Source: a virus. From it: 63,622 nucleotides of DNA. The stretch covers positions 1-63,622 of the IMG/VR virus record IMGVR_UViG_3300045747_000073; one strand, given 5' to 3'. Of the stretch, positions 1,415-60,719 are shown piece by piece (the stretch's first letter is position 1; each line of letters opens with the position of its first letter). A program made the translations under genes and the position numbers. A model generated the notes under the pieces. That model did not search any database. It saw only the letters and a program-made list of their open reading frames with translations, and had not been told where the DNA came from.

Positions 1415-4400
1415 ATGGCAACAATCATTCAGGGAAGACCAGTAACACGGGTTCCATCGGCTTCCACATCAGAGCGAATGCTCGCCTATCTTGGGGTGAA
1501 CCCTAATCTGGTTCCACCGATTGAAGAGGCAGTTGTTCCCGGGGCAGAAGCCTCACAGCAAGCGGTAGATACTATTGTTCCGGAGATGCTAGCGGTACCC
1601 CCGCTAGGGGGTCGGGGGAACTCTGCCGTACAGTTCGCCCCACCACTCGAACCAACATCTACACCGGAAGACTTGGCTATGCTCTCTCAATCGCCGATGG
1701 CGGGTAGAGAACGTTATTCAGTTGAGAACGTGGGTGGTGTTCCCGTTATGGATCCTGCTACTGGTGCTAATAAGGTAACCCCTGTAGGCATGGATCAGTA
1801 CGCCAAAGAGCGTGCTAACCAACTACAGTCACTACCAAACTATTCCCAGATTGATTCAGGCAAGAGCCCAACCGAGTATGCCTCTGAGGTTCTTCAGGAG
1901 CATGCCCGGTCTACTGGGAAGATGACACCTGAACATGCCCGTGAGATCGAGAACTGGGCGGATACTAGTGGTAACATCTTTGGTATCATCCAAGATAGAA
2001 CGATGGCTAACCTGTTTACTCAACCTAAGTTCTTCTCAACCAACCAAGACTATCTTGATGCAGGGCTTAAGGTTCCTGCTGCTACAGAGTTGATTGTTGA
2101 GAACGGATTAGAGGGGCATGAGAAGAATATTGCCACGGCTATCGGTGTGGGTATGAGCATGGGTGTTGGGCAAACACTGATGTATAAAGATGCTGATACT
2201 AAGGATCCTGTTAGTCCAACAGGTCGTACAATGACTGATGCCAGACCACTTGTGGACATCATCAATTCCACTATGGCCTTCGCTCAGAATGCCTTGGATA
2301 ATATGGGCTACAGTGTTCCACCTGAAGTTGTTCGTAAGTTTGCGACTATTCAAGCTCACTCTGAGATTGCTGATGGTAACCTTATCGAGATGAAGGATGA
2401 ACGGGGTCGTTCGGTATTTGGTGCCACACCAGACACTAAGGACTACTCCCGTAAGATGTCTTACTTAGCAGAAGCCTTGAGTGGTGATACCAAGCGTAAG
2501 GGTGTTTCATATGCACCTAATATCTCTGGATCAACCTTTACTGCACCCGGTAGCCAGCTGACTAAGGGGTCCATCACTCCTGATGGAACTAAGGCAACTA
2601 ACGCAGAAGTTGTGAAGGACTTGCTGTCATCCATCCAGTACGTTTACCGCCCTATGGATGTGGCCTACAAAGAGCTAGAGCTTAATATGATCCAAGAAGC
2701 TATGGAGCCTGAGGGTCGTTGGTCTAATAGTGAGTTTGCTAAACGTAACAAGGTGTCTAAAGCTAACTACAATGCGGCTATGGCCGAGTTCAAGCCACCA
2801 GAAGGGTATGACCCAGCAGACCCACAGCAAGTAGAGAAGTTCCAGAAGGACAAGGCAGAACATGCCCGTAGCGTTATCAATGATAAGCTTAAGCTGTTGA
2901 ACTATGATGTCAACACTGCTAAGGGTATCGCCGCCCCATTCTATATCTCCTTGTTGCATGACAACGCTAACCAACGGTTCTACGAGAACACTCGCGGTGC
3001 TGATGCAACTAACTCTAAGACCGGTGTTCGTGAGATGCGTAATCCGTTGAACCAAGACTGGGTTCGTCCTACTAGTTTGTTTGATTCCAAAGAAGTTGAA
3101 CGGATTAAACGGGAAGGCACTGCTGCCCTGTATAAGAACGGTAATGCTAGACAGACTGCCTTTGACAACATGAATATCTCTGATCTGAATGCGGTTGGAA
3201 CAATGATTGCTGCTGTAATTAACTACAATACAGTAGTGAACTCAGACAAGACCGTGCTTAAGCTTCCTGAGAGTGTTCTGTTGGGTATGTATACCCCTGC
3301 TATTGGTGGTGCCTTGGCGCAGTTAGGTGCCCAGTACAAAGCATTCATGGCTAATCCTAAGCAGGGCGATCATACCAATATCAAGCAACACCTAGCGGCC
3401 ATGCCTACTGGTGAAGCACTGGGTAATAAGAACTTGTGGGATAGCTTGGATTCTCTGCTGACCGGGTTCAATGATCCCAACCTCAAGCAGAAGCACGTAC
3501 TAATGTCCTATCTGAACTTTGATGACGGTAATCAGAATGGTATCTTCTTGCAGTCTTTGTTCTATGGTGACTCACCCAATGCTCGTCGTCTGGGTACGTT
3601 CGATCCTACTCTAAACGACATGCGGCAGTTAGCTAGTGGTGTTATTAAGGGTGAGATCAAGAACTTACTAAAGGACAACCCAGAAGCACTCGCTGCTTGG
3701 GGTAACTTCTTTGATGATGTCGGTAAGGATGACAAGTTCGCGGCAGATATGTTCAAGAAGCCTATCATGCGTAACTCGTATGGTATGGATGCTTCCATGT
3801 TTGAGACCCACATCTTTGACTTCTTGGTAGAGAAAGAGGATGCATTTACTAAGCATGTACTAGATACTGGTGTATACAAAGACATGGGTGAGGCTGCAGC
3901 AATGCTCAACAGGGCATTAGAAGCAACACTCCATAAGATTGTTAATCAGCAGTATAGCTCAGTGGTTAAGGCGGCAGGTCGTATGATGGCAGCAGTTGGT
4001 GGATACCCTATTCTTAAAGCACCTGACGGTGACGATATGGTTCTTACACCAGTAAGTCTACAGGGTGTTAACCAACAAGCTAACGACAAGCTTGAGTACC
4101 GCACCCTGCTTAGTGGTGAACGGGTTATGGTTAAGAACAAGGCATACAAGACGGTTGATATTGCTACCGAGGGTGGTGACGTTATTAGCACACCAATAGC
4201 CACTCGCCAAGCCAATCCCGCGTTCCATAAGGGTGTACAGACCTATTACCACGATGGTACTGGCGAGGTATCTACCTTCAAGAACTTCGCAGGCTCAGGT
4301 CTGAAGAACTACATGGCTGTGATGCCTATTCAAGGTGCTGATGGCTCGCTGGTTAAGCTTACGACACTTGCAGTGAACAAGAACAGAACCAATAAGGCTG

Positions 4401-5149
4401 TTCTGCCTGTGTCCTACAACCACGACGCTATTAACTCTACGGGGGCTGGTGCGTTGTACTATCGTAACGCCTACAACAACATTGCCATCCCACAGGCCAT
4501 CCCAGAGATTGCTAAGTTTGGTAAGAGGCTTGAAGCAGCTCTGATGCAAGAGATCCAGAAGACAAAGACTAAAGTATCTGGCATGGGCACTTGGATTGGT
4601 ATCGGTGAAGATGGTGATTACCCGGGCATGGGTGGTTTGTTTGATGAGCTATACGAGAAGATCAGACCAGACGGTTCCTACAAGAACTACTTCTTGCTCC
4701 GGCAAGGGTATGATGTAGATAATAAGTCTGTTCCTTCTGATGTTAAACAAAAGGCATTGTCCTCATGGGATAAGTACTCCGGTAAGATCAAGGACGCAAT
4801 CAACGAGGCTAAGAAGCTGGGTTGGCGTGAGCCCGGGTCTATTGATGAGAACATCCGGGCTGTTGCTGTTGTCAAGCAAGCAGACTATATCAAGATGATT
4901 GATCTGGCGGGTAGACAGCTTAAATTGTTTGGTGACTCCGACAGCAAGCTACACTCTTGGGCCGCTAACTTTGAGAACAAGGTTCTTAAGACGGGTCGTG
5001 ACTTAGCCCTAGCCACTAAGCAGGGCGGTATCGGGCAGATGACTGCTTCGGGTGGCGCTAAGGCAATGTCAGCGGATAAGCTGTATAGCAAACCAATTAC
5101 CGGGTCTCCTGAGCCAAGCACTACTAACCAAGAAGAAACCCCTTTCTAA
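1415..5149 (+). CDS. Candidate virion RNA polymerase (divergent single-subunit RNAP), internal virion protein, 1244 aa
   Basis: This is the last gene of the virion block, starting one base after the 1380-aa ejection protein. Three palm motifs of T7-type RNA polymerases occur in order. Motif A is FDDGNQNGI with D704-G705, G709-I710, S714 and D719, matching T7 D537-G, G542-I, S547 and D552 at the same spacing. Motif B is KKPIMRNSYG, where K781, M785, Y789 and G790 match T7 K631, M635, Y639 and G640. Motif C is NHDA, with H1003-D1004. For the T/DxxGR motif there are two candidates: NANQRFY (517-523) and DERGR (328-332). Spacings of 77 and 215 residues are in the range of T7 and N4. Other ejection proteins surround it and the 729-aa polymerase is separate, so I infer a packaged, injected polymerase as in N4. 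At 1244 aa it is far shorter than N4 vRNAP (about 3500 aa). Without a profile search the call is strong but unproven; otherwise it is an ejection protein. Confidence 0.72.
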   Translation: MATIIQGRPVTRVPSASTSERMLAYLGVNPNLVPPIEEAVVPGAEASQQAVDTIVPEMLAVPPLGGRGNSAVQFAPPLEPTSTPEDLAMLSQSPMAGRERYSVENVGGVPVMDPATGANKVTPVGMDQYAKERANQLQSLPNYSQIDSGKSPTEYASEVLQEHARSTGKMTPEHAREIENWADTSGNIFGIIQDRTMANLFTQPKFFSTNQDYLDAGLKVPAATELIVENGLEGHEKNIATAIGVGMSMGVGQTLMYKDADTKDPVSPTGRTMTDARPLVDIINSTMAFAQNALDNMGYSVPPEVVRKFATIQAHSEIADGNLIEMKDERGRSVFGATPDTKDYSRKMSYLAEALSGDTKRKGVSYAPNISGSTFTAPGSQLTKGSITPDGTKATNAEVVKDLLSSIQYVYRPMDVAYKELELNMIQEAMEPEGRWSNSEFAKRNKVSKANYNAAMAEFKPPEGYDPADPQQVEKFQKDKAEHARSVINDKLKLLNYDVNTAKGIAAPFYISLLHDNANQRFYENTRGADATNSKTGVREMRNPLNQDWVRPTSLFDSKEVERIKREGTAALYKNGNARQTAFDNMNISDLNAVGTMIAAVINYNTVVNSDKTVLKLPESVLLGMYTPAIGGALAQLGAQYKAFMANPKQGDHTNIKQHLAAMPTGEALGNKNLWDSLDSLLTGFNDPNLKQKHVLMSYLNFDDGNQNGIFLQSLFYGDSPNARRLGTFDPTLNDMRQLASGVIKGEIKNLLKDNPEALAAWGNFFDDVGKDDKFAADMFKKPIMRNSYGMDASMFETHIFDFLVEKEDAFTKHVLDTGVYKDMGEAAAMLNRALEATLHKIVNQQYSSVVKAAGRMMAAVGGYPILKAPDGDDMVLTPVSLQGVNQQANDKLEYRTLLSGERVMVKNKAYKTVDIATEGGDVISTPIATRQANPAFHKGVQTYYHDGTGEVSTFKNFAGSGLKNYMAVMPIQGADGSLVKLTTLAVNKNRTNKAVLPVSYNHDAINSTGAGALYYRNAYNNIAIPQAIPEIAKFGKRLEAALMQEIQKTKTKVSGMGTWIGIGEDGDYPGMGGLFDELYEKIRPDGSYKNYFLLRQGYDVDNKSVPSDVKQKALSSWDKYSGKIKDAINEAKKLGWREPGSIDENIRAVAVVKQADYIKMIDLAGRQLKLFGDSDSKLHSWAANFENKVLKTGRDLALATKQGGIGQMTASGGAKAMSADKLYSKPITGSPEPSTTNQEETPF

Positions 5150-5154
5150 ATTAA

Positions 5155-5193
5155 AACCCCACAAGGTATCCTTATAGGACGCCTTGTGGGGTT
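5155..5193. terminator. Bidirectional intrinsic terminator at the convergence of the two gene blocks
   Basis: A perfect 12-bp stem (AACCCCACAAGG at 5155-5166 with CCTTGTGGGGTT at 5182-5193) is followed on the plus strand by ATATTTTTAG. Upstream it has TAAATTAAAA, which gives a U-rich tail on the minus-strand transcript. It sits between the stops of the last plus gene (5149) and the last minus gene (5200), so it can end both giant transcription units. Confidence 0.93.
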
Positions 5194-5199
5194 ATATTT

Positions 5200-5445
5200 T
5201 TAGTTCATTGCTTCTTTGATTCGTGACCGTGCTAACTCAGCTTGGGAGTCTGCTCGTGCCCTTGCTGCTCCCGCATCCATACCTCGACGGATATACTCGT
5301 TGTAGTTCTCTTGCTGCATCTTGCTCACTGCGGCTGCGTTGATCTTAGGGGTGCCAGCTAGCTTAGGGTCTAGCCCTAACTCTTGGCATACCTCTTCGTC
5401 TGTAGTGTCTCCACCACGGAGGGCATCTAGGTTGTAGTGTTTCAT
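5200..5445 (-). CDS. Small conserved-looking phage protein, 81 aa
   Basis: Last gene of the minus-strand block. Its start overlaps the stop of the Dps-like gene by ATGA, which indicates translational coupling. The C-terminal half is helical and rich in Ala, Arg and Glu (AGAARARADSQAELARSRIKEA). No domain is recognised and no function is proposed. Confidence 0.8.
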   Translation of the reverse strand: MKHYNLDALRGGDTTDEEVCQELGLDPKLAGTPKINAAAVSKMQQENYNEYIRRGMDAGAARARADSQAELARSRIKEAMN

Positions 5446-6325: not shown

Positions 6326-6519
6326 CCAAACTTCCTTTCCAATAATGCTAAGATCTCTTCCAAGTCAATATCAGAGACCTCATCCAAGTCATCTAAATCG
6401 AACGGCTTGTCAGGGTATATCTTAAGCAACTCATCACGAGTTACCCACTGAGTATTACCCGGCCAGTAACCCGCATGGTAGTGCATGTCATCGGGGTATT
6501 CACTTCCTAGATCATGCAT
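6322..6519 (-). CDS. Small acidic protein downstream of ribonucleotide reductase, 65 aa
   Basis: The frame overlaps the 3' end of the reductase gene by 13 bases from ATG 6519. A TTG at 6534 would extend it to 70 aa. The C-terminus is very acidic (DLDDLDEVSDIDLEE). It keeps the compact, coupled operon spacing. Function unknown. Confidence 0.72.
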   Translation of the reverse strand: MHDLGSEYPDDMHYHAGYWPGNTQWVTRDELLKIYPDKPFDLDDLDEVSDIDLEEILALLERKFG

Positions 6520-7417
6520 ACACCACTCACACAAGCTAATTGTTGAACACCCTCAACCTGATCGGAGTATTCCTCGAAGTCATTCCAATCAATCCCGGCA
6601 GGAATCTTAGCAGCCATATCCTTGTACTCCTGTTCAGTGCATTCTTCGTAGGGTGCTTGTTGATATGTGCCACCATCGTCCGGCAGGAACGATACGCCAG
6701 TACACTCATCGAAGTGGTTATAAACCCATGACCCAACCTCCATCCATTCATTCTCCTTTATGGAGATAGTTACTGATGGATTATGGTCAGTGTACCATGT
6801 CTTGTACTTGAGCCATAGTTCTAAGTGTTGAATCGCCGTAAGATCCTTCTTAGTAAACCCGGCGCATTTCTGTGGAAACGAGAAAACCACAGTATCTTGA
6901 GGTTTCATAACGCAGTCTTCATGAGGGAATCCTTGCTCAATAAGGAAGGTAGTCATTGGATCCTTCTTATCCTGTCGAATACGACGAATGTAGAAGGGTG
7001 CATGCCCCGGGTGGATACCACTAGATGTCTGAGTAAGCTGGCTCACCGTGCCCTCAGGTTTGATCGTGGTGATTGCCTTTGACCGTGGGATGCCCAGGGT
7101 ATCAGCCCAGATATTGTTTGTCTCTGTGGCACAATCTGATAGCTTCTTGAGGATGTGCTCAAGAGAGATGATAGACTCACCACGGAGGATTGGGTTGTCA
7201 AGGATACCAGTCATGGATACACCCAACAAACGCTCCTCTTCAGTGTTCTGCTGCCAGATCTTACGCAGATACGGGAAGTCAGTGAGGGTGGCTTGCATGG
7301 TACCCATGATAGTAGCAATGCGTACTTTCTCCAGCAAGGTTTCGATGGTATCTTGTGGGGATACTACTACAGTAGATAGGTTACAAAATTGTTGTGGACG
7401 CAATAAAATCTCTCCAC
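6507..7417 (-). CDS. nrdJ: Class II ribonucleoside-triphosphate reductase, exon 2 (C-terminal)
   Basis: This is the second exon of the reductase; exon 1 is 8294-9263. Joining T at 8294 to GT at 7417 restores NPCGEILL and then QFCNLS, the active-site segment of adenosylcobalamin-dependent RTPR. Spliced, the gene has 627 codons (626 aa plus stop), in phase. The C-terminal end CVSGVCMI (Cys619 and Cys624) matches the shuttle cysteine pair of the class II enzyme. The enzyme makes dNTPs from NTPs for phage DNA synthesis. An internal ATG-like start in this exon has no ribosome binding site and lacks the catalytic cysteine, so independent translation would be inactive. Confidence 0.93.
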
Positions 7418-7513
7418 CTTACTGTTACTTCGGTTGTTGCGTACAACCTACTGACCACTTGCCTGTGGCGGGGTGACTCTTCATTCACCCTCTAGAGTTT
7501 CTTTTGTTATACT

Positions 7514-8140
7514 CTAGATCAGACTATCGCATGTAATATGTTTCCACGTTCTATTGTATCGAATATTGTTTATAACACAGTGTTTAACATCAAAGATATT
7601 GGCAATTTCTTTTGTAGTTTTATCGGTGATTAGCAAGCTTTTAATTTCCTTAACTTGCTTCTCATCCAGAATTGCTCTACCATTCTTTGATCCGGCTTGT
7701 ATACCTCTATAGATATCCGGTCGTTCTGAATGTATCTTCAATGCTCGTTTGCTACGGGCTTCTTTGGTGTCCTTCTTGCTTATGGCAAGTTTGGTTGCCT
7801 CAGAAGTTGCTTTCCTGTGCTTTTCTTTATTCTCGGGTATGTTGTACCAACTAGGTTCAACCCCTAACTCACCACCCATTTGAAGGTTTAACCCAATCAT
7901 TTGTGTGGGTCTATAGTAAGCCTCTGCCAAGAGAGCTTCCTGTAAACTTAGGCTTTGATCCATCATTTCTATTTCGATATCTGACCAAGCGGTTGACTTT
8001 AAGAAACATACCAGAGGTGTCTGGTGTTTGTTCCTTCTGTGCCCACGAATTCGCTCAGATAGGTCTTTAGTTATTCCAACATAGCCCTCTGACATAACGT
8101 CTGTGTGACCTTTATGCCTAATCCAATATACTGTGTACAT
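7514..8140 (-). CDS. Intron-encoded GIY-YIG homing endonuclease, 208 aa
   Basis: The N-terminal GIY-YIG domain shows YTVYWIRH...GYVGITKDLSERIRGH, with the catalytic Arg and downstream Glu (LLAEAYY). The C-terminal part (KQVKEIKSLL...TTKEIANIFDV) looks like a helix-turn-helix for target binding. It lies wholly inside the intron, so it probably spreads the intron into empty reductase genes. ATG 8140 is chosen because GAGAGGGG precedes it; a GTG at 8155 is also in frame. Promoter element E2 lies about 40 bases upstream. The N-terminal domain is similar in pattern to the protein at 56144. Confidence 0.9.
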   Translation of the reverse strand: MYTVYWIRHKGHTDVMSEGYVGITKDLSERIRGHRRNKHQTPLVCFLKSTAWSDIEIEMMDQSLSLQEALLAEAYYRPTQMIGLNLQMGGELGVEPSWYNIPENKEKHRKATSEATKLAISKKDTKEARSKRALKIHSERPDIYRGIQAGSKNGRAILDEKQVKEIKSLLITDKTTKEIANIFDVKHCVINNIRYNRTWKHITCDSLI

Positions 8141-8178
8141 AATTACCCCTCTCACTTAGTCGTTCACGGTGAATAACT

Positions 8179-8200
8179 TTCTCCTATAGGTACCGGCTAG
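8179..8200 (-). promoter_or_regulatory. Candidate phage-RNAP promoter, element E2 (inside the intron)
   Basis: Minus-strand CTAGCCGGTACCTATAGGAG, inside the group I intron upstream of its endonuclease gene. It shares 21 bases with E6 at 26655-26675. Its position suggests that the homing gene is transcribed separately from the reductase message. Confidence 0.6.
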
Positions 8201-8293
8201 CGCCCTGCAAAGAAAACTATCCTTCCGCCCTGTCGCCTACTGCTAGGCTTCCAAGTCAATCAGAGAGGGTTTTAAATCCGCATGTAATTATTT

Positions 8294-9263
8294 ACGGATT
8301 GACCCCATATTCTACGTCAGCACTCCGAAGACCCTTCTTACTAGCCTGCTTCTGTGCTGCTTCACGATTGAAGATACCACGTTCACCGGAGTGGCTATCA
8401 TAGATTGACAACCATTCCTTCATGAACTCACCGATGGAAGGCTTCTCAGTGTATACTGCAGAGTTATTAGCTAGTGCTCGTTCTGGGGTATGCTCCCACC
8501 AGTTACCAGACTTAGCTGTGGAATGGGAGTAGCTATTCAGGTCACCCAAGCTAATGAGTGCGGATCGACGTACACCACCCACCACTACAACCTCACCAAT
8601 CTTGCACATCAGATCATGGCACTCGATAGGTTTCAGCTTACGACCCTGAGCCTGTTTGAACTTCTCTACGGTGTATTCAAACAAAGAGACCAATGGGGCA
8701 GGACCACTAGCACGACCACCGAAGGTCTTGAGTGGTGCTCCGGCGGGACGTACCCGGGAGACATCCCAACTGAGGATATTACCTTTGTACAAGCTATAGA
8801 GCAACGTCTTGTATGCCTCGCACCAACCCTCTTTGCTGTCCTCTACAGGGATCTTGATGAAGGTGCAATCATACAGGCTAGGAACCTCTGGAAGCTTCTC
8901 AGTGTATTGTTTCTCACAAGAGAAGCCTACACCAGTACCATTCAACAGGATATACATGGCTTCATCGAACGATCGTGGGTCATCTACCGTGATATACGAA
9001 CAGTTGTAGCCGGACACCGGTGATCGTTCCAATGCTGGGCCTGCGGTCATGACTGAGCGCATGGATGGCAGTGCCTTTAGACTGACAATGTTCTCATACA
9101 GGGTGCCCCAGATACGAGCATCTTTAGGGATCTTGTTGTCGAGTTTAGTACTGAAGTAATCCACCCAACGGAATGCTGTCTCATCCCAGTCTTCACGACG
9201 GTTCTGATCTGGGAGATAACGGGAGTACCTGGACTTCGAGATTACCTTTTGATACTGATTCAT
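8294..9263 (-). CDS. nrdJ: Class II ribonucleoside-triphosphate reductase, exon 1 (N-terminal)
   Basis: The exon holds residues 1-323 of the adenosylcobalamin-dependent reductase. Recognisable family stretches are RSVMTAGPALER, GYNCSYITVDDPRSFDEAMY, LLNGTGVGFSCE, SWDVSRVRPAGAPLKTFGGRASGP and GERGIFNREAA. The exon ends at GVNP plus the first base of the next codon. Without splicing a TAA follows at once, leaving an enzyme without its catalytic Cys324. Its start overlaps the stop of the GIY-YIG gene at 9260 by ATGA. Confidence 0.93.
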
Positions 9264-9735: not shown

Positions 9736-11925
9736 TTAACAAAAGAAATACTGACTGTTTTGGACATCGTTTATATCCAGTGATCCGAGAACTGGTTGTG
9801 TTGCTGAGAAGCTAGGTTTATACTCCATCAAGTTATCTTCGAGTAGATCAAAGAAGTTTTCTACATCATACTGAGCTATGAAGGTCATCTTAGTGATGTC
9901 CTGCAATAGATCAACGTCAGACGCATGACAACTAAAGCTATCATGTACCGCAGCGAATGACCCATTGAATGCTACAATGGTGTTGGCCATGTGAGCAGCA
10001 TCATAACTATGTACTACATTCGGGCTGATCCCCGAGGCGAATGATCTCCGGCATGGGATCTTCTCTCCGGTAGTCTTACCGACTACATCTATCTTAACCA
10101 CATGCATGATCCTGCCTGTCTTACTCCCGGGTAAACCCTTAATGGTTCCCCTCTGCTTGTGCTCATGCTGAAGGTTTGCCTTGTATACGACCGGGAAACC
10201 GCTAGGTGTCTTCCAAGACAACTCATTAGAGCCATTAGCGAGTTCATGCTCAGCCATCTTCTGAAGGTACTTAGTAGTCTTCAGTGGTCCTTGGCATACC
10301 TCGTTGATTGAGTCTATGAGCTTACCAGCCAACATCTCGCAGTCATCTTCGCTGATGTTGTACTTGTGGTTGAACCCTAGCATATGCAGATCATCGTACA
10401 TGTTAGAAGCTATCCGCTTCTTACCTGCTGAGTACGCACGAGTCATAGAGCCCCTCTTAGCAATGCCCTTGCGGATATGCTTCATGGGTATACCACGACT
10501 AGCGAACCAGTCAGGGAGTTTACCTACTAGGTTCTTAGCCACGGCTACGTAGAAGTCCTTCTGTACAGCTTCATTCGTGAGTGACACTAACGATCCTGCT
10601 GCTTTGTCCTTGGACATTGCTGCAAGGTGTTGCCAGCCATTGTTCGAACCATCGATACCCACGGGTAGCCCTGAGTAGTAAGGCTTGCCTAATGCTTGTG
10701 CTATGGTGTAGTTAAAGAGTTCTACACAACAAGATAAGAACCCATACGGCTTCTCTGCTTTAGGTGTCAACTGCTCAGCCTTACCCAACTTAGCAATCAT
10801 GCTATAGTTCTCGATAGTCCACTGAAAACGATCCTCCATCGTCATCTTGTCTACTGATATGGTGTCCAGACCTTCTTCTTCCAAGTACTTCCGGTAGTCG
10901 GTTGTCGTCCAGCTAGGGATCTCATTGATATCATATGATTGATTAAATGAGGTTGCAGCCTTGATGCATATCCACCGATAGCCACTCTTAGTAACCTCCT
11001 TTGTATCCTCAAACAAGAAAAGACTTCTCGCAAGGTCTCCCCCTTGATAAGACAAGAATGATTCAGTGTAGTACATACGCCCACGGTAGTCACAAGATAC
11101 CTCCTGATAGAATGTTTTATCCAGCAGCATTACTGCCTTCTTAATTACTTGCTCGTACTCGTACTTCTTGGAGATCAGTCGTTGTACTCGTGTGTCCCTG
11201 TGTCCAAGGAAGGGGGTGCCTTCGTAAGTGTATTCGCCCCTTGGGAGATCGCCAATTGGATACGAGCCGATAACGCCATCTCCATCAACAAGCTCGATAG
11301 TTGATTTTGGGCTTTCTGCAATTGCTGTGGCGAGTACTGCACCATTGATTTTCCATCCTTGCTGGCGTAGAACTTCCAAGGCTTTAACGAATCGCTCATT
11401 CAAACACTCCTTAAATTTATCTTCGTCAGTCCATCCCTTGATGAATGACTGGTGGGTTAGCGGGCTTTTAAGCCCCGATATCCTAGGTAACGGGACAAGG
11501 GATGTGCCAACGAGTACTGGCTTGATACTGTTAATGTCACCCTTGAGTAGCAGCATGTATGGCGCTTTGAAACCATCGTATGCCCTCTCGATATCTATCA
11601 AGTCATCCTGAAGAAAGGTTTCAATCAGGATGTCACCTAACGCAAGTATATCCTTAATATATGGGTCAATAAGCCGCAGCCTACTAGCCAGTTGAGTACC
11701 TATCATGGTGCTCACAAAGGTTAGTTTAACTGCGGCCATATGGGTTGCACTCTTATTACGGATACAGTACCGTGTTAATGAGTCCCATGCTTCCTCTACA
11801 ATTTCCTCCAATTCGAATTCCCATAATGGGTATTGTGCCAGAAGTAAACAACCTTGGTTGTACATTTTTTCTGACTCCGGTATTACCTTATTGACTCGTT
11901 GAGCCAAATAAACCGATGGATCCAT
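9736..11925 (-). CDS. T7-type single-subunit DNA-dependent RNA polymerase, 729 aa
   Basis: All hallmark motifs are present: DYRGR (279-283); motif A DGSNNGWQH with catalytic D425; motif B KRGSMTRAY with K490 and Y498; motif C HDSF with D662. The protein is shorter than T7 RNAP (883 aa), mainly in the N-terminal domain, as in many marine and environmental podophages. It should transcribe middle and late genes from phage promoters; the TTAGCYGGTACCTAATAGG elements are the best candidates. The start ATG at 11925 follows AAGGAATCTA. It lies next to the primase-helicase, within the replication block. Confidence 0.97.
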   Translation of the reverse strand: MDPSVYLAQRVNKVIPESEKMYNQGCLLLAQYPLWEFELEEIVEEAWDSLTRYCIRNKSATHMAAVKLTFVSTMIGTQLASRLRLIDPYIKDILALGDILIETFLQDDLIDIERAYDGFKAPYMLLLKGDINSIKPVLVGTSLVPLPRISGLKSPLTHQSFIKGWTDEDKFKECLNERFVKALEVLRQQGWKINGAVLATAIAESPKSTIELVDGDGVIGSYPIGDLPRGEYTYEGTPFLGHRDTRVQRLISKKYEYEQVIKKAVMLLDKTFYQEVSCDYRGRMYYTESFLSYQGGDLARSLFLFEDTKEVTKSGYRWICIKAATSFNQSYDINEIPSWTTTDYRKYLEEEGLDTISVDKMTMEDRFQWTIENYSMIAKLGKAEQLTPKAEKPYGFLSCCVELFNYTIAQALGKPYYSGLPVGIDGSNNGWQHLAAMSKDKAAGSLVSLTNEAVQKDFYVAVAKNLVGKLPDWFASRGIPMKHIRKGIAKRGSMTRAYSAGKKRIASNMYDDLHMLGFNHKYNISEDDCEMLAGKLIDSINEVCQGPLKTTKYLQKMAEHELANGSNELSWKTPSGFPVVYKANLQHEHKQRGTIKGLPGSKTGRIMHVVKIDVVGKTTGEKIPCRRSFASGISPNVVHSYDAAHMANTIVAFNGSFAAVHDSFSCHASDVDLLQDITKMTFIAQYDVENFFDLLEDNLMEYKPSFSATQPVLGSLDINDVQNSQYFFC

Positions 11926-15399: not shown

Positions 15400-17241
15400 T
15401 TAATGCACTGCAAGGTAAGTCTTACCAGACTTAGATTCCCCTGCCATACAAGTTACATTAAACATTTTCGGCCCCTCCGTAAATGCTTCCGCCAATATTT
15501 CTTTAGTTCGTTCAACATCTTCGTCTTTAACAACAAACTCTGCTTCGTCATGGTAGTGCATTATAGGGTAGCTCATGATCCCTTCTTCAGCTAGCTTCCT
15601 GCTAGCCCACACCATAGCTGCCTTGCAAGTGATTGCTTCGGTCGTTTGTAACAGGTAGTTAAGCACTTGATGGGGAGACGCAACAAAGATAATTCTACCG
15701 TCTAACCCTCGGATGTGCGCCTTATCAGATCCAAATGCAGAGCCTGTTCGGGTGTACTCGTCTTCTAGGGTTGTTACTAATCGCTTCATCCCGGGTACCG
15801 AGTTCTGGAACTTTTCTTTCATCTGAGCACCTAGCTTAGCATCAGTCTTCCCAGTCAGAATGTTACCTAGCTTCCCTGCACCAGCACCAAACAAGTAAGC
15901 AAAGAAGAAAGGTTTGCTGGCTTTACGGGATACCCCCAAGGCATCGGCATTTCGTTGATGGATGTCCCCATGTACAACCTCCTTAGTGAACTCGTCGTTC
16001 CCTAGGTAGTGACACAGGGCACGTACTTGGCACCCGGCTGAGTCTGCTCCCACAATGCTTGTTCCCGGCTCACAAGTAAGCAACTCGCGAAGTTCTGCGC
16101 CGTAGGCTGAGTCTTCCCTTGGAATATTGCAGACAATCTCGTGCCTGCATCGAAAGCTCGGAGTCCCAATAGTCCACATACGTCCATGTAGTCGTCCATC
16201 ACTGTTCTTTGCAGCATCAATCCATCCTTCTAGAATGCCCTTGCGAGAGCGTATGGTATAGTATTCACTGATCATCATGGCTTCTGGGCCTAGCTTTTCG
16301 AGTGATGATTCAGTGATCTTAGGTGACTTATTGATCCATTTGTTACCAACCTTCTCCACATTCCACTCATCAGGAACCCACCCAATACTGTATAGGTAGC
16401 TCTTTACGATCTCAATTTGACCGATTTTACCTTGCTCAAAAGATACTCGGCTGTACTCACCTTCAATCGGACGATCGGTTCTTCCACGTTCTTCCTCAAT
16501 CCCGAAGTGCTTGACAGTAGCGAGGGTATAGCAACCGTCTTTTCTCCATGCGGGTTGCTTAGTAACTGTTCCATCGGTTCGGACGCACTGTAACCCGATC
16601 CTTGGTTCCAACACGCGTTCAATAGCTTCCAGTTTATCATCGATCTCTCCTAGTAGTTTGATAGCACCATCCATATCGAACTTCCAGCCTTTGTACTGGA
16701 TGTCTGCTTCGATCTTAGCAAACTCCATTTCCACTTCCAGTCCTTTACTGAATAGTGGGTACTTGGTCATAAGCTTCTGGGCTTGCTGGGTTAGCTCCTT
16801 GTATACCAAGACATTCAACTCAACGTCTCTGATGCAGTACGTAAGCATCTCTTGGGTGTACTGAGTGAAGTCACTGAATTCAAGCTTAGGGAACTTGAAT
16901 TTCTCACCCCACCCAGCTAGACCATGTTTGTGGTCCCTCTTGTACTGCAAGAGCATTGACATGATCCACGTATCAATCACCCTCACGGATGGCGCAGGTG
17001 ACCAACCTAGTACCTTCTTAAGCACCACGTTGTCAAACCCAATACAATTGTGCCCAAAGATAATGTCAGCTTTGTTCAACTCTTGCAAACCCTCGGCCAC
17101 TTTTGGTAGCTTAGGGTCGTGGTCTGAATAGGGTTTCACTTCTCCTGTATCAGGATTAACTAAAACAAGGCACCATATCTTGGTTACCCTGTCTAGTAGC
17201 CCGTCACATTCTACGTCATAACAATATCTTAATTTACTCAT
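15400..17241 (-). CDS. Family A DNA polymerase with 3'-5' exonuclease domain, 613 aa
   Basis: Proofreading motifs are DVECDG (D9, E11), FGHNCIGFD and YCIRDVE. The polymerase part has motif A GADSAG (D400), motif B RKASKPFFFAYLFGAG (R439, K443, F447) and motif C HDE (564-566). F447 is at the position of E. coli F762 and T7 Y526. The position of the usual motif B Tyr (E. coli Y766, T7 Y530) is F451 here, and Ala replaces Gly after F447. ATG 17241 is chosen because GAGGATATTCT precedes it and it overlaps the zincin stop; an in-frame start 15 codons upstream is less likely. Confidence 0.96.
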   Translation of the reverse strand: MSKLRYCYDVECDGLLDRVTKIWCLVLVNPDTGEVKPYSDHDPKLPKVAEGLQELNKADIIFGHNCIGFDNVVLKKVLGWSPAPSVRVIDTWIMSMLLQYKRDHKHGLAGWGEKFKFPKLEFSDFTQYTQEMLTYCIRDVELNVLVYKELTQQAQKLMTKYPLFSKGLEVEMEFAKIEADIQYKGWKFDMDGAIKLLGEIDDKLEAIERVLEPRIGLQCVRTDGTVTKQPAWRKDGCYTLATVKHFGIEEERGRTDRPIEGEYSRVSFEQGKIGQIEIVKSYLYSIGWVPDEWNVEKVGNKWINKSPKITESSLEKLGPEAMMISEYYTIRSRKGILEGWIDAAKNSDGRLHGRMWTIGTPSFRCRHEIVCNIPREDSAYGAELRELLTCEPGTSIVGADSAGCQVRALCHYLGNDEFTKEVVHGDIHQRNADALGVSRKASKPFFFAYLFGAGAGKLGNILTGKTDAKLGAQMKEKFQNSVPGMKRLVTTLEDEYTRTGSAFGSDKAHIRGLDGRIIFVASPHQVLNYLLQTTEAITCKAAMVWASRKLAEEGIMSYPIMHYHDEAEFVVKDEDVERTKEILAEAFTEGPKMFNVTCMAGESKSGKTYLAVH

Positions 17242-17771
17242 AGAATATCCTCGCCGTATTTCTCGGCATATAACCCTGATAGGCACCTAGCCTCAATCTC
17301 TACAGGGTCAAAGTAGTAGCATTCTCGATGATCTTTCTTGTCCCAGTGTGCACCCTGTACCTTAAATCCTTTTCTACCTGTAAGCTTTTGGCATACATGC
17401 ACCATCTCATGACAGAGGATTTCTACGTAGGCATGTTGGGTGTAGACGTTAGGCTCCCAGTTTTCAATCCAAGGATCACGTACTTGAACTAAGATCTTGT
17501 TGAAGTTTCTGGCTCGACCTATCTCGAATTCCCCTTCTATAGGCTCACACCAGATGGTTAAACCACTGGTTGGAGCATCGTCATCCATCTGGATTAGACA
17601 GAATTCGACCATGACCTTCTCTTGGGTGACTTCAAGGTGAAACCTCTCTACGTAGTCGGCAAGGATATTGTGGAATAGGGTTTTGATCTCACGGTGGTTG
17701 TTGGCTAGGGATGTAACGTGGACTTTGACGTTCTTAGGGTAGACTACAGGAGTCCGGACTTTGCTAGCCAT
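17238..17771 (-). CDS. Zincin-like metallopeptidase domain protein, 177 aa
   Basis: ILCHEMVHVCQ carries the HExxH zinc motif, and DPVEIEAR about 37 residues later offers the third ligand Glu. This arrangement is typical of small zinc peptidases. There is no signal peptide, so it should act in the cytoplasm. It is coupled to the DNA polymerase start. Possible roles are processing of a phage or host protein; SprT-like DNA-protein crosslink proteases share the motif but I cannot assign that family. Confidence 0.75.
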   Translation of the reverse strand: MASKVRTPVVYPKNVKVHVTSLANNHREIKTLFHNILADYVERFHLEVTQEKVMVEFCLIQMDDDAPTSGLTIWCEPIEGEFEIGRARNFNKILVQVRDPWIENWEPNVYTQHAYVEILCHEMVHVCQKLTGRKGFKVQGAHWDKKDHRECYYFDPVEIEARCLSGLYAEKYGEDIL

Positions 17772-28357: not shown

Positions 28358-28672
28358 CTAGCTTGCCATCTCCCTAAGTTCTCTGATTGATAATGTACTA
28401 ACAAATAACAAGAAGAAGATCCTTGTATCTGTCATCTCACCCGGTTTACCAAAGCCATCATTGTAAGCGGCATCGCTGCTGGATAGTTTTCGTGTGATTT
28501 GATAGGCGTTATATGCGCCAAGCTTTTCCGCTGTGTAGCAGATACCATTGGCATAGCTACCGTAGTTGGCCTCTAGTGTTCCTCTTTCGAGGATCTGTCT
28601 ACATGCTGTTCGGTATGCAGTCATGTCGTTGATTGAGAATTTAGGACGTAGTCCAATAGCTATGCTATTCAT
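28358..28672 (-). CDS. Hypothetical protein, 104 aa
   Basis: Helical protein (AYRTACRQILERGTLEANYG) with a hydrophobic segment near the end (RIFFLLFVSTLSI). Its first ten codons contain the doublet hairpin D1. It is coupled to the 21-aa peptide by ATGA. Confidence 0.74.
   Translation of the reverse strand: MNSIAIGLRPKFSINDMTAYRTACRQILERGTLEANYGSYANGICYTAEKLGAYNAYQITRKLSSSDAAYNDGFGKPGEMTDTRIFFLLFVSTLSIRELREMAS
28644..28669. repeat. Doublet mini-hairpin D1
   Basis: Hairpin A GGAC-GTA-GTCC (28644-28654), then hairpin B AATAGC-TAT-GCTATT (28655-28669). Both have three-base loops. It lies just after a start codon on the minus strand, within coding sequence. Confidence 0.75.
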
Positions 28673-29277: not shown

Positions 29278-29302
29278 GAACGTAGTTCGACAGCTATGCT
29301 GT
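29278..29302. repeat. Doublet mini-hairpin D2
   Basis: Hairpin A GAAC-GTA-GTTC (29278-29288), then hairpin B ACAGC-TAT-GCTGT (29290-29302). Intergenic. Confidence 0.78.
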
Positions 29303-29653: not shown

Positions 29654-30265
29654 CTACCTAGTCCTCCCACAAGCCATATCTAAATACTTAATAGTACCCT
29701 CAGCAAATCTCTCTGCTGCTTCCTTGTTAAGATGTACTCCATCGGTAGTATCTGATAGACCTTTGTATAATATATTCTGTCTCCAATTAGCATCAATGAT
29801 ATCACGGTTAACAGAGGTATATGTGTGGATATATGTATCTAATATTGCTGCATTATCTATTTGTGTCTGATTAAGTATGCTATTAGGCGCGTTAGTTAGT
29901 GGTACTATTCCTGTTACCACAATGGTTGCTCCTTTAATGCTCTCGATAGTGCTCTTGAATAGTGCCTCTACCTCTGGCTCTGGTGTATCACCCACGTCAT
30001 TACCGCCAAGCTCTATTAGTACTACTTGAGTGTGGAACTCTTTTGTTATCTCTCTGAGCTTCATGCCACCAACTGCTAAGTCAGTGATGATGAAGTTAGG
30101 TCGTCTTGCTCTGATGTAGTCTGAGAAGCCTACTAGGGTGTTCTTAGCGATGATACTGTCGCCAGTCATTGTAATGGTGCATGGTGTTACTGTAGTAGGA
30201 GCTATGCTCCCGCCCCCGCCACACCCGGCTAGTGCTACCGCTAGTAGTGTTAGTAGTGCTTTCAT
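29654..30265 (-). CDS. SGNH/GDSL hydrolase lipoprotein, 203 aa
   Basis: The N-terminus has a lipobox (LAGC, Cys15) after a hydrophobic stretch, then a glycine linker. The catalytic blocks are TGDSI (Ser nucleophile), a Gly in block II (AVGGM), GGND in block III and DGVHLN with the Asp-His pair. Such enzymes remove acyl or other ester groups. As an outer- or inner-membrane lipoprotein it could alter surface glycans during infection or exclude other phages; that role is inference. It lies at the early end of the minus block. A B-type mini-hairpin sits in codons 19-23. Confidence 0.85.
   Translation of the reverse strand: MKALLTLLAVALAGCGGGGSIAPTTVTPCTITMTGDSIIAKNTLVGFSDYIRARRPNFIITDLAVGGMKLREITKEFHTQVVLIELGGNDVGDTPEPEVEALFKSTIESIKGATIVVTGIVPLTNAPNSILNQTQIDNAAILDTYIHTYTSVNRDIIDANWRQNILYKGLSDTTDGVHLNKEAAERFAEGTIKYLDMACGRTR
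30198..30210. repeat. Mini-hairpin B5 (single) in lipoprotein gene
   Basis: GGAGC-TAT-GCTCC, a perfect 5-bp stem with the AGC-TAT-GCT core, in frame as Ser-Ile-Ala on the minus strand. Confidence 0.55.
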
Positions 30266-30575: not shown

Positions 30576-30601
30576 CGGACGTAGTCCGCGAGCTATGCTC
30601 G
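30576..30601. repeat. Doublet mini-hairpin D3
   Basis: Hairpin A CGGAC-GTA-GTCCG (30576-30588) is followed directly by hairpin B CGAGC-TAT-GCTCG (30589-30601). It lies in a 120-bp gap between early genes. Confidence 0.8.
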
Positions 30602-31477: not shown

Positions 31478-31500
31478 TTAGCCGGTACCTAATAGAGATA
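31476..31500 (+). promoter_or_regulatory. Candidate phage-RNAP promoter, element E9 (late block)
   Basis: GATTAGCCGGTACCTAATAG then AGATA, pointing to the large terminase 120 bases downstream. Just after it, TTTAAG/CTTAAA and ACTC-AAAA-GAGT (31502-31531) form a 5' stem-loop that could protect the transcript. Confidence 0.65.
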
Positions 31501-43972: not shown

Positions 43973-45226
43973 ATGGGCTACAACGTAACAGAAGGGGCTG
44001 TAGTAGGTGACTCCCCGGGTGGCCAATATACTACAGCAGCGGGTAACAGCGGTTATTCCCAGACAGCAGGGTCAACAGACAGTGGTGCTCCGGGTGGGCA
44101 ATACGATACCTCAGCTACACCTAACACTATTATATACAAAAACATAGCTGTTGAATCCGCTGCTGGTGCCTCGATTGATGCGGCACAGGCGCTGGTCTCT
44201 GCTGAATCTGCCGCAATATCGGCTATAGCAGCAGCTTCCAGTGCTATAACCGCAGAAGATGCAGCAGTATTAGCAGCAAGTAACTCTAGGCTTACTGCTG
44301 GCACAGCTACAGCCGTGGCACCCGGGGGTGCTCCTACCGTTAGTATCACTGGTGCTGCTGGCTCACAGGTGCTTGACCTAGGTGTTGTTACTGGTGCTAT
44401 CGGAGCAACAGGGCCACAGGGTATTCAAGGTATTAAGGGTGACACTGGGACGCAAGGCAACCAAGGTATTCAAGGTGACACTGGGCCACAAGGTACTCAG
44501 GGTATCCAAGGTATTCAGGGAGACACGGGACCACAAGGTATTCAGGGAGACCAAGGTCTCACAGGTGACACAGGTCCCCAAGGCATTCAAGGTATTCAAG
44601 GTTTAACTGGTAACACTGGGCCACAAGGTATTCAAGGAATCCAGGGCAATATTGGCCCAATAGGGGTGAATTGGTTAGGTGCCTGGGATAGTGGTACCGC
44701 ATACATAGCCAATGATGGTGTATCAATAGGGGGCTCTTCCTACATATCCATTCTGGCTAGCACAAACCAAGCCCCACCTAATGTATTATACTGGGATCTT
44801 TTTGCCGCCAAAGGAGCAGATGGTGCAGCCGGTGGAGGTGTTATTAGTGTTACGGGGGCAAGCCCTATTGTTTCTAGTGGTGGGGTTAATCCTGAAATTA
44901 GTATCCCGGTAGCAACCAGCTCCGTAAATGGCTACTTAACATCAGGGGATCATACAACGTTCTCTGCTAAGGTTGATGGTCCGGTTAGCTCTACTAGCAA
45001 CAGTGTTGCTTTGTTCAATGGCACATCCGGTAAGCTAATTAAAGAGGGTGGTACTCTTGGTACTGCAGCCTTTGCAAGTGCTTCCGCTATGGTACCTACT
45101 GGTGGCACCATAAACCAAGTTCTTATTAAGAACAGTGCAACAGACTACGATACCTCGTGGTCAACACCCTCAAGCGGTATTACAACAGGTAAAGCAATTG
45201 CTATGGCAATGATCTTTGGATTCTAA
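43973..45226 (+). CDS. Tail fibre with collagen-like domain, 417 aa
   Basis: About 30 Gly-x-y triplets (GPQGIQGIQGDTGPQGIQG and alike) lie between an Ala-rich coiled region (AVESAAGASIDAAQALVSA) and a C-terminal domain. Collagen-like triple helices are common in phage fibres. The triplet DNA is highly repetitive and could change in length. AAGGAGGT precedes the start. Confidence 0.87.
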   Translation: MGYNVTEGAVVGDSPGGQYTTAAGNSGYSQTAGSTDSGAPGGQYDTSATPNTIIYKNIAVESAAGASIDAAQALVSAESAAISAIAAASSAITAEDAAVLAASNSRLTAGTATAVAPGGAPTVSITGAAGSQVLDLGVVTGAIGATGPQGIQGIKGDTGTQGNQGIQGDTGPQGTQGIQGIQGDTGPQGIQGDQGLTGDTGPQGIQGIQGLTGNTGPQGIQGIQGNIGPIGVNWLGAWDSGTAYIANDGVSIGGSSYISILASTNQAPPNVLYWDLFAAKGADGAAGGGVISVTGASPIVSSGGVNPEISIPVATSSVNGYLTSGDHTTFSAKVDGPVSSTSNSVALFNGTSGKLIKEGGTLGTAAFASASAMVPTGGTINQVLIKNSATDYDTSWSTPSSGITTGKAIAMAMIFGF

Positions 45227-58337: not shown

Positions 58338-60719
58338 ATGTTAGCCCCATTGTCAGGCAAGCTTAAAATGAAGATGATGTTGGATCAAGCCAAGTCACAA
58401 GCAGATGAACAGCGTAAGCAAGAAAAGCATGATCTCACACTTGATGCACAAGCAAAGAAGGCTAACTTAGGTTTCCAGTTTGCTACTCGTGATCAGATCA
58501 TTAAAGAGAAGGCTAAGACTAGGGACCTAGGGCTAGCGCCCTCCCCCGTGCCTCCTCTCAACCCTATCCCAGAGATGGAAGAAGAATATGACCAACCTAC
58601 GAACCCTGAAGCTGGGCCTAGTGATGTTGTCCCTGCTATGCTTGCAGAAGGGGAGGCAGTTATTCCCGCTAAGGCTGCACAAGATCCAGAGAACAAAGCA
58701 GTAATTGCCTCTCTTGTTAACGAAGGAAGACAAGGCTTTGCTAAGGGCACAGTAAGTGTTCCTAAGCCCGGTAAGAACCGTACTGGTATCGTTGAGTATG
58801 ATAATTTGTTACCTACTATCCCTATTGTTGGGGTGAGAAGGAAGCTTAAGGGGTATGCTGCTGGATCGGTTGATATTGGGGATGAGCGCGAGAATTACAT
58901 GGCCTTGGCACGTACCCTTGGTCGTGTATCCGCTGATAAAGAACCAGAAAGCTTTGCCATTATAGCCAAAGAGTTACAGGATCAAGCAGGTGTAGTTAAC
59001 AACGGTCGTGTAACACCTGTTGTGGATGTTAACGCCATACCCCGGGCACAAGCGGATTATGACGAAATTGTTAGAGAGATGTCTCGTAACAAAAGCCCAG
59101 ATGCACAAGCGATACTTCAGGGTGAGTTAGACAAAGCTAAGAAAACGCTAGCTATGAAAAGTCCCTTGTATGATGTGCAGGTGGCTTCGCCAGATTCATT
59201 CACGGGTGTAAACCCAGACAGCCCCAACAAGAACTTACGTGCTCAAGGCACTAATGCAATACTACAGCCTAATGGAACAGTAACCACCACTAACACCAGT
59301 ATCAACGGGGCAACAGCCCAAGGTATCCCGCCTATCCAGACATTAGATCAGTTCAACGATTGGAAACGTTCTCGTCATCCGGGCTATGTTGATCCACCAC
59401 AGATTGATGCACTCGCGGGTATGCCTAGGAATGAAGCTGGGTTAGCCGGGGCAGAGCTACAGCCAGTACCCCAGCCAGAGCTAACAGACCCAGTAGCTAT
59501 CAATGCTCACCTTGGCTTTGTTGGTAATGAGTTCAGTGATCGTATTGGTCTGGAAGCAGATACACAAAAGGCTGCGGTAGCTAGTGGTGAGAAGACAACA
59601 GAAGAAGCGACAAGCTTCATGCAAGACTTCTTGTCAGGTATCTTCGGCAAAGACGGTATCATAAACTCCAAGACCCTTAGTAGGTTCGCCTTGCTAGGCG
59701 CTGGTGGTTTGATGACTGGTGGCTCGGTGAATGGTAGCCTTAAGTATGCTGCATTGGATTCGTTGAAGCAGTATGATTCGGGTAACCAAGCCCGTGCTGC
59801 TTCTGCTGCTGAACAGAGTAAGAACACCCGGGAACTAGGTGAGTCACGACAAGCTCAATACAATACAGCCTTGGCTACTACAGAGGTAACCCCCGAAGTC
59901 AAGCGTAAAGCAATTGAGATGGCAGGTGGCGGTACTGTATCGAATTACAACCAAGCTATCCAGTTCCTTGCTGCTAACTCTCAGGCTAAACCCTCTAAGG
60001 AAAACCAGCCTAAGTATGAGATGGGTTACGTTGGTGACACCCTTGTCCCTATCGTTATTCATAATGGAAATCGTTACCAGCAGTCACCAGACGGGAAACT
60101 CTTTACACCTAAACAGCCAGTATTAACTAGTGCTGAGTATGGTGACTTCGACAGGCGCACAGGTGATGACTTCGTTGCTCGTATTACTCCTGAGCTAGAG
60201 CTAGAGACAGGCCCAGACGGTAAGCCGATCGGTACGGCTGCAGCCACTTCAAAGGCTAAACAAATGTCCACTTGGTTCTCGGGTATGCGTAAGGACTTTG
60301 GGGGTGCTCTAGACCACTCAGCACTTGGGGCATTGCAAGCTAACACAGTAACACAACTCAAGGAGTCTGGTAAGCTGAACTCTCGCCTGTCTGAGGCCGG
60401 GTATAAAGCAGCCTTGTATGGTAATGCAGCTATTGCACTCCACCCGAACGATAAGAGCTTGTTTATGACACAGCAAGGTGACAAGACGGTACCACCATCT
60501 GGTGAGTCACTTGTTAAGTTTGGTTCTGCTGTGACTAATTATGCTAAGAAAGAGAACATTCCTTTTGAGAAGGCATCCTCTGATCTTATCAATGCTTGGA
60601 AGCTGCTACAACAACAAGACCCCAAGAAGGCTCAGCGTATGACCACAATGGCTAATGCAGTTAAGGATCAAACAATATCCCCAATGATGTTTTGGGCCGT
60701 GACAGAAGCAAATAAATAG
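58338..60719 (+). CDS. Internal virion protein, 793 aa
   Basis: AGGAGAACCT precedes the start. The region DVVPAMLAEGEAVIPAKAA is a frequent phage motif (VPAMLxxGExVIPA). The rest is helical, with Ala-rich coils (ARAASAAEQSKNTRELGESR). It probably belongs to the ejected channel. No lysozyme motif was found. Confidence 0.78.
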   Translation: MLAPLSGKLKMKMMLDQAKSQADEQRKQEKHDLTLDAQAKKANLGFQFATRDQIIKEKAKTRDLGLAPSPVPPLNPIPEMEEEYDQPTNPEAGPSDVVPAMLAEGEAVIPAKAAQDPENKAVIASLVNEGRQGFAKGTVSVPKPGKNRTGIVEYDNLLPTIPIVGVRRKLKGYAAGSVDIGDERENYMALARTLGRVSADKEPESFAIIAKELQDQAGVVNNGRVTPVVDVNAIPRAQADYDEIVREMSRNKSPDAQAILQGELDKAKKTLAMKSPLYDVQVASPDSFTGVNPDSPNKNLRAQGTNAILQPNGTVTTTNTSINGATAQGIPPIQTLDQFNDWKRSRHPGYVDPPQIDALAGMPRNEAGLAGAELQPVPQPELTDPVAINAHLGFVGNEFSDRIGLEADTQKAAVASGEKTTEEATSFMQDFLSGIFGKDGIINSKTLSRFALLGAGGLMTGGSVNGSLKYAALDSLKQYDSGNQARAASAAEQSKNTRELGESRQAQYNTALATTEVTPEVKRKAIEMAGGGTVSNYNQAIQFLAANSQAKPSKENQPKYEMGYVGDTLVPIVIHNGNRYQQSPDGKLFTPKQPVLTSAEYGDFDRRTGDDFVARITPELELETGPDGKPIGTAAATSKAKQMSTWFSGMRKDFGGALDHSALGALQANTVTQLKESGKLNSRLSEAGYKAALYGNAAIALHPNDKSLFMTQQGDKTVPPSGESLVKFGSAVTNYAKKENIPFEKASSDLINAWKLLQQQDPKKAQRMTTMANAVKDQTISPMMFWAVTEANK

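Follow-up and report, generated by a model that had tools for sequence, protein, structure and literature searches.

A putative compact virion-type single-subunit RNA polymerase gene at the end of the structural block of an environmental phage genome

The window, that is, the whole 63,622-nucleotide stretch of viral DNA analyzed here (IMG/VR record IMGVR_UViG_3300045747_000073), carries the same 167-bp repeat at both contig ends; the genome is therefore closed, with a length of about 63,455 bp. An open reading frame on the plus strand (positions 1415 to 5149), with the SD-like sequence AAGAAGGAAAAC ahead of its ATG, codes for a protein of 1244 amino acids (aa). It is the final gene of the plus-strand structural block, in agreement with the first-pass annotation, which had called it the last gene of the late virion block. 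A hairpin that resembles an intrinsic terminator and has a T run comes after it (about 5155 to 5202, plus strand). A block encoding RNR, a T7-type RNA polymerase, and a primase-helicase converges on it. Directly upstream lies a single gene for a 1380-aa ejection-type protein, which spans the contig ends and was therefore read as two plus-strand open reading frames (60727 to 63621 and 2 to 1414; the parts extend over 60727 to 63622 and 1 to 1414, the first 167 bp of the latter repeating the contig end). Upstream of this gene, a 793-aa protein (58338 to 60719, plus strand) was identified by synteny as the first of a trio; its counterpart in Roseobacter phage CRP-7, gp35, has a lysozyme-like N terminus. 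The phage also encodes its own DNA polymerase (15400 to 17286) and a separate 729-aa T7-type RNA polymerase on the minus strand (9736 to 11925; phrog_414, E = 3e-93; DGSNNG, DYRGR, and HDS motifs). The prediction that this is a two-polymerase phage was thus confirmed as to the second polymerase, which is conserved in relatives (15 of 16 records).

The 1244-aa protein contains the three motifs of single-subunit RNA polymerases (ssRNAPs), in order and at the residues previously proposed. Motif A comprises D704, G705, G709, I710, S714, and D719 (codons for the catalytic Asp in D704-GNQNG-I710, 3524 to 3544), motif B comprises K781, M785, Y789, and G790 (O-helix, K781-KPIMRNS-Y789-G790, 3755 to 3784), and motif C is H1003-D1004 (4421 to 4426), all on the plus strand. 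A pre-motif-C element, Q973-x-x-D976 (4331 to 4342, plus strand), corresponds to T7 H784-x-x-D787. In motif A, Gly709 occupies the site of the steric-gate Glu of DNA polymerases. The composite pattern DG-x3-G ... K-x3-M-x3-YG ... HD arose in 2 of 20,000 shuffles of the protein, and among 297 unrelated open reading frames of at least 300 aa a loose form of it matched T7 RNA polymerase and N4 gp50 only. Eight residues (D704, G705, G709, K781, M785, Y789, H1003, and D1004) were invariant in the main clade, which comprises about 40 phage contigs related to this one, so the conservation expected of homologues was observed; because this invariance extends to members with only about 25% identity, it points to selection for catalysis. 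We found no clear counterpart of T7 R627 or of the DxxGR/TxxGR motif in the protein, and no Arg lies at K781-4; the invariant R521, in an A-N-Q-R context, is a candidate counterpart.

Structure prediction gave the same assignment. An AF2 model of aa 165 to 1244, built from 31 family sequences with no templates, reached a pLDDT of 84.3 and a pTM of 0.83. The best 50 Foldseek matches in the PDB were all ssRNAPs (mitochondrial, T7, and N4 virion enzymes; E = 4e-13 to 2.5e-9), including the N4 virion RNA polymerase (vRNAP) structures 9pnq, 2po4, and 3c2p, and the top viral matches were phage DNA-directed RNA polymerases and virion-encapsulated RNA polymerases. The predicted fold is of the right-hand palm-and-fingers type, and the model has the secondary structure anticipated at each motif: a strand (model residues 537 to 541) and then a helix (544 to 553) at motif A, a helix (611 to 624) at the motif B O-helix, and the turn of a beta-hairpin at motif C. 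TM-scores were modest (0.34 to 0.43 by query length) with a large global rmsd, as might be expected of a divergent multidomain model; fine detail can accordingly be drawn from the model only to a limited extent.

Sequence comparison was less informative. Searched as a single sequence, the protein had no match in Pfam, PHROG, or the PDB, and none among 50,697 phage records except CRP-7 at a relaxed threshold; GTDB genome contigs contained no relative, a profile search of the PDB returned chance matches only, and Rfam gave no match. The first-pass annotation had looked to an HMM search against T7 and N4 for confirmation, and this was not obtained: hhalign scores were nonsignificant against T7, N4, DNA polymerase, and portal alike. 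N4 against T7 fails equally, however, so the profile test does not discriminate, and register alone is informative. Without motif information, hhalign placed K781/K631, M785/M635, Y789/Y639, Q973/H784, and D1004/D812 of T7 in register, as well as K781/K670, P783/P672, and Y789/Y678 of N4. Taken together, the model and the alignments indicate that the protein almost certainly adopts the ssRNAP fold of the T7/mitochondrial/N4 superfamily, and its motifs, with Gly at the sugar-gate position, make it very likely that it acts catalytically as an RNA polymerase.

Clues to its deployment come from the upstream protein and from the early region. In hmmscan, the family of the 1380-aa protein matched the virion RNA polymerase family phrog_2206 (4 of 19 members; best E = 1.4e-8), in its N-terminal region, and a virion structural family (2 of 19 members; 7e-13), whereas an hhalign comparison of the upstream protein with the N4 N-terminal domain was not significant. 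As this match lies in the N-terminal part of the N4 virion polymerases, the layout resembles a split N4 enzyme. Gene order is shared by relatives with flanking sequence, in which two large ejection-type proteins are followed by the polymerase gene and the convergent RNR/T7-type RNA polymerase/primase block is also present. Given this order and the upstream protein, together with the N4-like hairpin candidates described below, we consider it probable that the polymerase is packaged and ejected; with its gene lying among those of probably injected proteins, the particle probably brings in an enzyme of the phage's own to start transcription.

The early region contains, as candidate N4-like promoters, four covarying hairpins with 3-nucleotide loops (NN-AGC-ATA-GCT-NN; the outer pairs covary; 0 of 100 shuffles), all on the minus strand. 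Three are double: CGAGC-ATA-GCTCG and then CGGAC-TAC-GTCCG (30576 to 30601), ACAGC-ATA-GCTGT and then GAAC-TAC-GTTC (29278 to 29302), and AATAGC-ATA-GCTATT and then GGAC-TAC-GTCC (28644 to 28669). The fourth copy has the first hairpin only (GGAGC-ATA-GCTCC, 30198 to 30210). The candidate promoter element, with stem and loop, reads CGAGCATAGCTCG. Of the four copies, one overlaps the start of a coding sequence and another falls within a predicted gene. Applied to N4, the same detector picked out hairpins of the form GC-TCC-GC upstream of both gp2 and gp15, in agreement with the published template-strand contacts -8G, -9C, -10G, and -11G (PMC4496689). In 14 relatives, the detector (loops of 3 to 5) returned nothing equivalent to the hairpin of the window; repeat analysis showed a different loop-6 hairpin, TGGA[GC]AGCG[AC]TCTTGCT, in the corresponding place in five relatives. 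From sequence, use of these hairpins as promoters by the virion-type polymerase appears somewhat favored. About ten separate T7-like promoter candidates were found on both strands: TAGCYGGTACCTAATAG at 31479 to 31496 (plus), with further sites at 25605, 29154, 33531, and 51195 (plus) and at 26674, 23125, 17947, 8199, and 6192 (minus).

These observations suggest the following order of events. The 1244-aa DNA-dependent ssRNAP would be carried inside the virion and be ejected along with the 793- and 1380-aa proteins. Like N4 vRNAP, it would then use short extruded DNA hairpins to start transcription of the early genes, which lie on the minus strand below about 31.5 kb. The conventional T7-type polymerase would be expressed as a result and would take over the remaining genes from separate TAGCYGGTACCTA(A/T)AGG promoters. 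We regard this account as a whole as likely. Alternatively, the protein could be a genuine ssRNAP that is not packaged but produced intracellularly, for instance to transcribe late genes, while host RNA polymerase starts early transcription. Packaging is deduced from position, a gene in the late block could serve an intracellular late role, and the T7-like promoter sites do lie on both strands. Against this, the gene is last in the ejection block, as is N4 gp50, beside a protein resembling the N4 vRNAP N-terminal region; the early region, where the N4-like hairpins are located, shows no enrichment of sigma-70 sites (12 versus 17.6 expected); and a polymerase made late would have to be packaged to act on the earliest genes. 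We therefore consider an unpackaged enzyme unlikely.

A second clade bears on whether the fold is still catalytic. It includes the cultured CRP-7, whose gp33 (MK613349, annotated "hypothetical protein") is 22% identical over aa 693 to 1164. This clade keeps D704, Y789, H1003-D1004, and the fold, and carries the substitutions G705 to A, G709 to N, K781 to R, and M785 to V; either the chemistry tolerates these changes or the clade is altered. Such changes in motifs A and B with the fold kept would suit a degenerate polymerase serving as a structural ejection protein, in the role of T7 gp16. This is highly improbable for the window protein, which belongs with the main clade in its invariant catalytic residues, and even the CRP-7 clade retains both aspartates, Tyr789, and His1003. 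A relative of family A DNA polymerases, a reading raised by weak Pfam DNA_pol_A matches (4 of 17 members; best E = 0.0014) and by the pre-motif-C PIQSTDGDLIK and Q707, which resemble DNA polymerase A, is rejected as extremely improbable on fold and steric gate, since none of the 50 listed PDB matches is a DNA polymerase (nor any listed for the CRP-7 clade model, also an ssRNAP), Gly709 replaces the steric-gate Glu, Met785 sits at the T7 M635 place, motif C reads HD[SA] and not HDE, and the phage already has a DNA polymerase.

The observation in the first-pass annotation was therefore correct and its interpretation is largely supported; the relatives, the link to CRP-7, the split layout, and the promoter candidates are new. 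A review of N4 treats its giant virion polymerase as a hallmark that only the N4-like phages possess (PMC7650795). If our reading is true, a podovirus group unrelated to them, of which CRP-7 is a cultured member, has a virion polymerase of one-third the N4 size. Such an enzyme, possibly a compact ssDNA-hairpin-dependent polymerase, would be tractable for studying the ejection of a folded polymerase and the need for the giant N4 domains, would inform the evolution of virion polymerases (split versus fused), and would supply a function for the hypothetical proteins of about 40 phage contigs from the environment. We refer to the system as the putative compact virion-type RNA polymerase of marine phages. 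Whether it forms a separate lineage outside the Schitoviridae, with N4-type N-terminal ejection and polymerase domains as two adjacent genes, a cascade in which a true T7-type enzyme is the other polymerase, and extruded hairpin promoters that diversified between phages while keeping the AGC...GCT stem, we judge to be an even question.

Among known systems, the virion RNA polymerases of jumbo phages, crAss-like phages, and Thermus phage P23-45 (a tape-measure fusion) are virion borne and start early transcription; they are related to multisubunit cellular RNA polymerases or two-barrel enzymes and differ in fold (PMC10770324). T7 RNA polymerase (gp1, Autographiviridae) shares the predicted fold and the T7-like residues of motifs A, B, and C, M635 and HDS among them, but identity is about 10% over the structural alignment, and the gene here lies in the late virion block while the separate T7-type enzyme fills the T7 role. 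CRP-7 has the same order, gp35-gp34-gp33 facing the T7-type polymerase gp30, and differs in motif A (DARQSNAG) and in R for K781 and V for M785. Its portal and RNA polymerase, with those of non-N4 groups, are the nearest relatives of those in the window; CRP-7 has been placed among non-N4-like podoviruses (PMC6918029), and the window lacks the Schitoviridae gene set with its giant vRNAP. N4 gp50 is a chain of about 3500 residues joining N-terminal, polymerase, and C-terminal domains; at 1244 aa, the protein here is about one-third that size, as first noted, with no fused N-terminal domain (a similar region is encoded separately, by the gene upstream) and no 1400-aa C-terminal domain. Its motif C, HD[AS], agrees with that of T7 and not with the FD of N4, and where N4 has the gp15/gp16 heterodimer as its second polymerase, this phage has one T7-type chain. 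The two share the ssRNAP fold (2po4 and 9pnq among the matches), motif A DG..NG and motif B K-x-P-[LI]....YG, the position as final gene of an ejection operon convergent with another block, and the N-terminal region resembled by the 1380-aa protein; at the sequence level, short GC-closed hairpins with 3-nucleotide loops, here candidate promoters, also lie upstream of early genes.

The ORF at 1415-5149 (+) encodes 1,244 amino acids and is followed on its 3′ side by a terminator-like hairpin (~5155-5202). All of the motif residues that the first-pass annotation had named in proposing a virion-packaged single-subunit RNA polymerase were found in this protein at the positions assigned to them. The two contig ends have a 167-bp repeat in common (one mismatch), which indicates a closed genome of ~63,455 bp; the ORFs at 60727-63621 and 2-1414 form a single 1,380-aa gene directly upstream of the polymerase gene.

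No sequence match to the 1,244-aa protein was found in Pfam, PHROG, or PDB, nor in a phage search at 1e-5. At a relaxed threshold, the sole annotated relative was gp33 of Roseobacter phage CRP-7, a "hypothetical protein" with 22% identity over aa 693-1164. Searching IMG/VR with the peptide NAYNNIAIP, common to both proteins, gave 24 loci, and alignment gave 37; further pattern scans returned mostly contigs already found. Across 12 aligned sequences from the main clade (~40 related phage contigs), D704, G705, Q707, G709, K781, M785, Y789, H1003, and D1004 were invariant. With 31 sequences, one truncated before motif C, the motif A and B residues were still invariant and H1003-D1004 was at least 90% conserved. 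The CRP-7 clade retains D704, Q707, Y789, Q973, D976, and H1003-D1004, with motif A reading DARQSNAG, K781 replaced by Arg, and M785 by Val. The composite motif pattern was rare in shuffled sequence, and a loose version matched only T7 RNA polymerase (RNAP) and N4 gp50, the giant virion polymerase of Escherichia phage N4, among 297 unrelated ORFs.

Profile comparison, suggested earlier as a check, gave nonsignificant scores against T7 and N4; since N4 against T7, accepted homologues, scored no better, this test cannot discriminate. Alignments made without motif information were nevertheless in register, both with T7 (K781/K631, M785/M635, Y789/Y639, Q973/H784, and H1003-D1004/H811-D812) and with N4 (K781/K670, P783/P672, and Y789/Y678). 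Structure prediction, another proposed check, favored the polymerase reading: for the AlphaFold2 model of aa 165-1244, built from family sequences only (pLDDT 84.3; pTM 0.83), the best 50 PDB matches were all single-subunit RNA polymerases, N4 virion polymerase structures included. In this model, motif A lies on a strand that leads into a helix, motif B lies at a helix end, and H1003-D1004 sits in a beta-hairpin turn. Its matches in a viral structure library were T7-type and virion-encapsulated polymerases, and a CRP-7 clade model (pLDDT 71) likewise matched single-subunit RNA polymerases. Weak Pfam DNA_pol_A matches in the family are taken to reflect the common superfamily. The DNA polymerase steric gate is Glu710 in Klenow, corresponding to Gly542 in T7; the window protein has Gly709 at this position, which would favor ribonucleotides.

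In relatives with enough flank, a ~650- to 1,060-aa protein, a ~1,250- to 1,475-aa protein, and the polymerase are followed by a convergent block, which in most comprises ribonucleotide reductase (RNR), a T7-type RNAP (~733 aa; 9736-11925 [-] in the window), and primase-helicase. Of 16 records, 15 had a T7-type RNAP; the exception, a contig of 48.7 kb, may be incomplete. The middle protein matched virion RNA polymerase phrog_2206 over the N-terminal region of the latter (2.9e-5 for the window protein; best 1.4e-8 among the 4 of 19 members that matched) and, in two members, a virion structural family (7e-13). The first protein corresponds to CRP-7 gp35, whose N terminus resembles lysozyme with a score above the Pfam cutoff. 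The N-terminal domain of N4 gp50 reportedly binds lipid, and gp50 is the last protein ejected (PMC12633501). Given the conserved gene order, the phrog_2206 match, and these N4 features, the layout resembles an N4 enzyme whose N-terminal and polymerase domains are encoded by separate, adjacent genes.

Several other features of the genome were observed. Residues 39-104 of the 1,380-aa protein (window 60727 onward) carry a family-conserved, staphylococcal nuclease-like pattern, DxDT...R...NAPE...DxYGR, and Pfam SNase matches one family member (E 0.0019); an ejected N-terminal nuclease domain is possible. The RNR gene (6507-9263 [-]) is in two parts, covering phrog_367 positions 31-377 and 394-696 and separated by a homing endonuclease-like gene (7514-8155), an arrangement that suggests a split gene or an intron; in CRP-7, too, the RNR is annotated as two separate pieces, gp44 and gp46. 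Short repeats in a 9-base register within a structural gene (44372-44677) read as collagen-like Gly-x-y.

The early region (minus strand below ~31.5 kb) contains four minus-strand copies of the hairpin NN-AGC-ATA-GCT-NN, with 5- to 6-bp stems, 3-nt loops, and outer pairs (AT, AC, GG, and CG) that all covary. This group is unique in the genome and was obtained in 0 of 100 Markov shuffles; a GRAC-TAC-GTYC hairpin directly follows three of the four copies. Applied to the first 12 kb of N4, the same detector recovered hairpins of the form GC-TCC-GC a short distance upstream of gp2 and gp15; their template-strand sequence is GCGGAGC, in agreement with published contacts at -8 to -12 (PMC4496689). 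Five relatives (G001, G002, G003, G004, and G006) instead carry hairpins of sequence TGGA[GC]AGCG[AC]TCTTGCT; these lie on the early side of the terminase gene, and most are ~20 to 30 nt upstream of a start codon. On the same side, G003 (locus L201) has two 29-nt repeats, AAGTGAGACCACTTGGGGTARGTACCAAG, which can fold as hairpins and lie near a AGCGATCTTGCT hairpin, and another relative, G010 (loci L228-L230), has three copies of the element GGGGCCTTGTARAGTGGTCTGARGGG and a tandem array of CACACCCTATGA.

Sites matching TAGCYGGTACCTA(A/T)AGG numbered ~10, against 0.1 expected, and lie mostly upstream of gene starts on both strands (25605, 29154, 31479, 33531, and 51195 [+]; 26674, 23125, 17947, 8199, and 6192 [-]). 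They resemble T7 promoters and are candidate promoters of the T7-type polymerase; the motif is also frequent in three relatives (G005, G007, and G008). The early region showed no enrichment of sigma-70 sites.

The predicted fold, the conserved active site, the co-occurrence of two polymerases, the conserved gene order, and the statistically unusual hairpins were all computed here. We infer a pathway in which the polymerase would be packaged with the genome, ejected after two partner proteins by analogy with N4, and start transcription at extruded hairpins; this transcription would yield the T7-type polymerase, which would then act on its own promoters. CRP-7 was described as representing a new podovirus group, with ORF30 as its only annotated RNA polymerase (PMC6918029), and a literature search that did not extend to bioRxiv preprints and many subscription papers found no published report of this second polymerase. 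The window polymerase probably represents a new version of the type of virion polymerase known from N4; it does not belong to the Schitoviridae, the family of N4.
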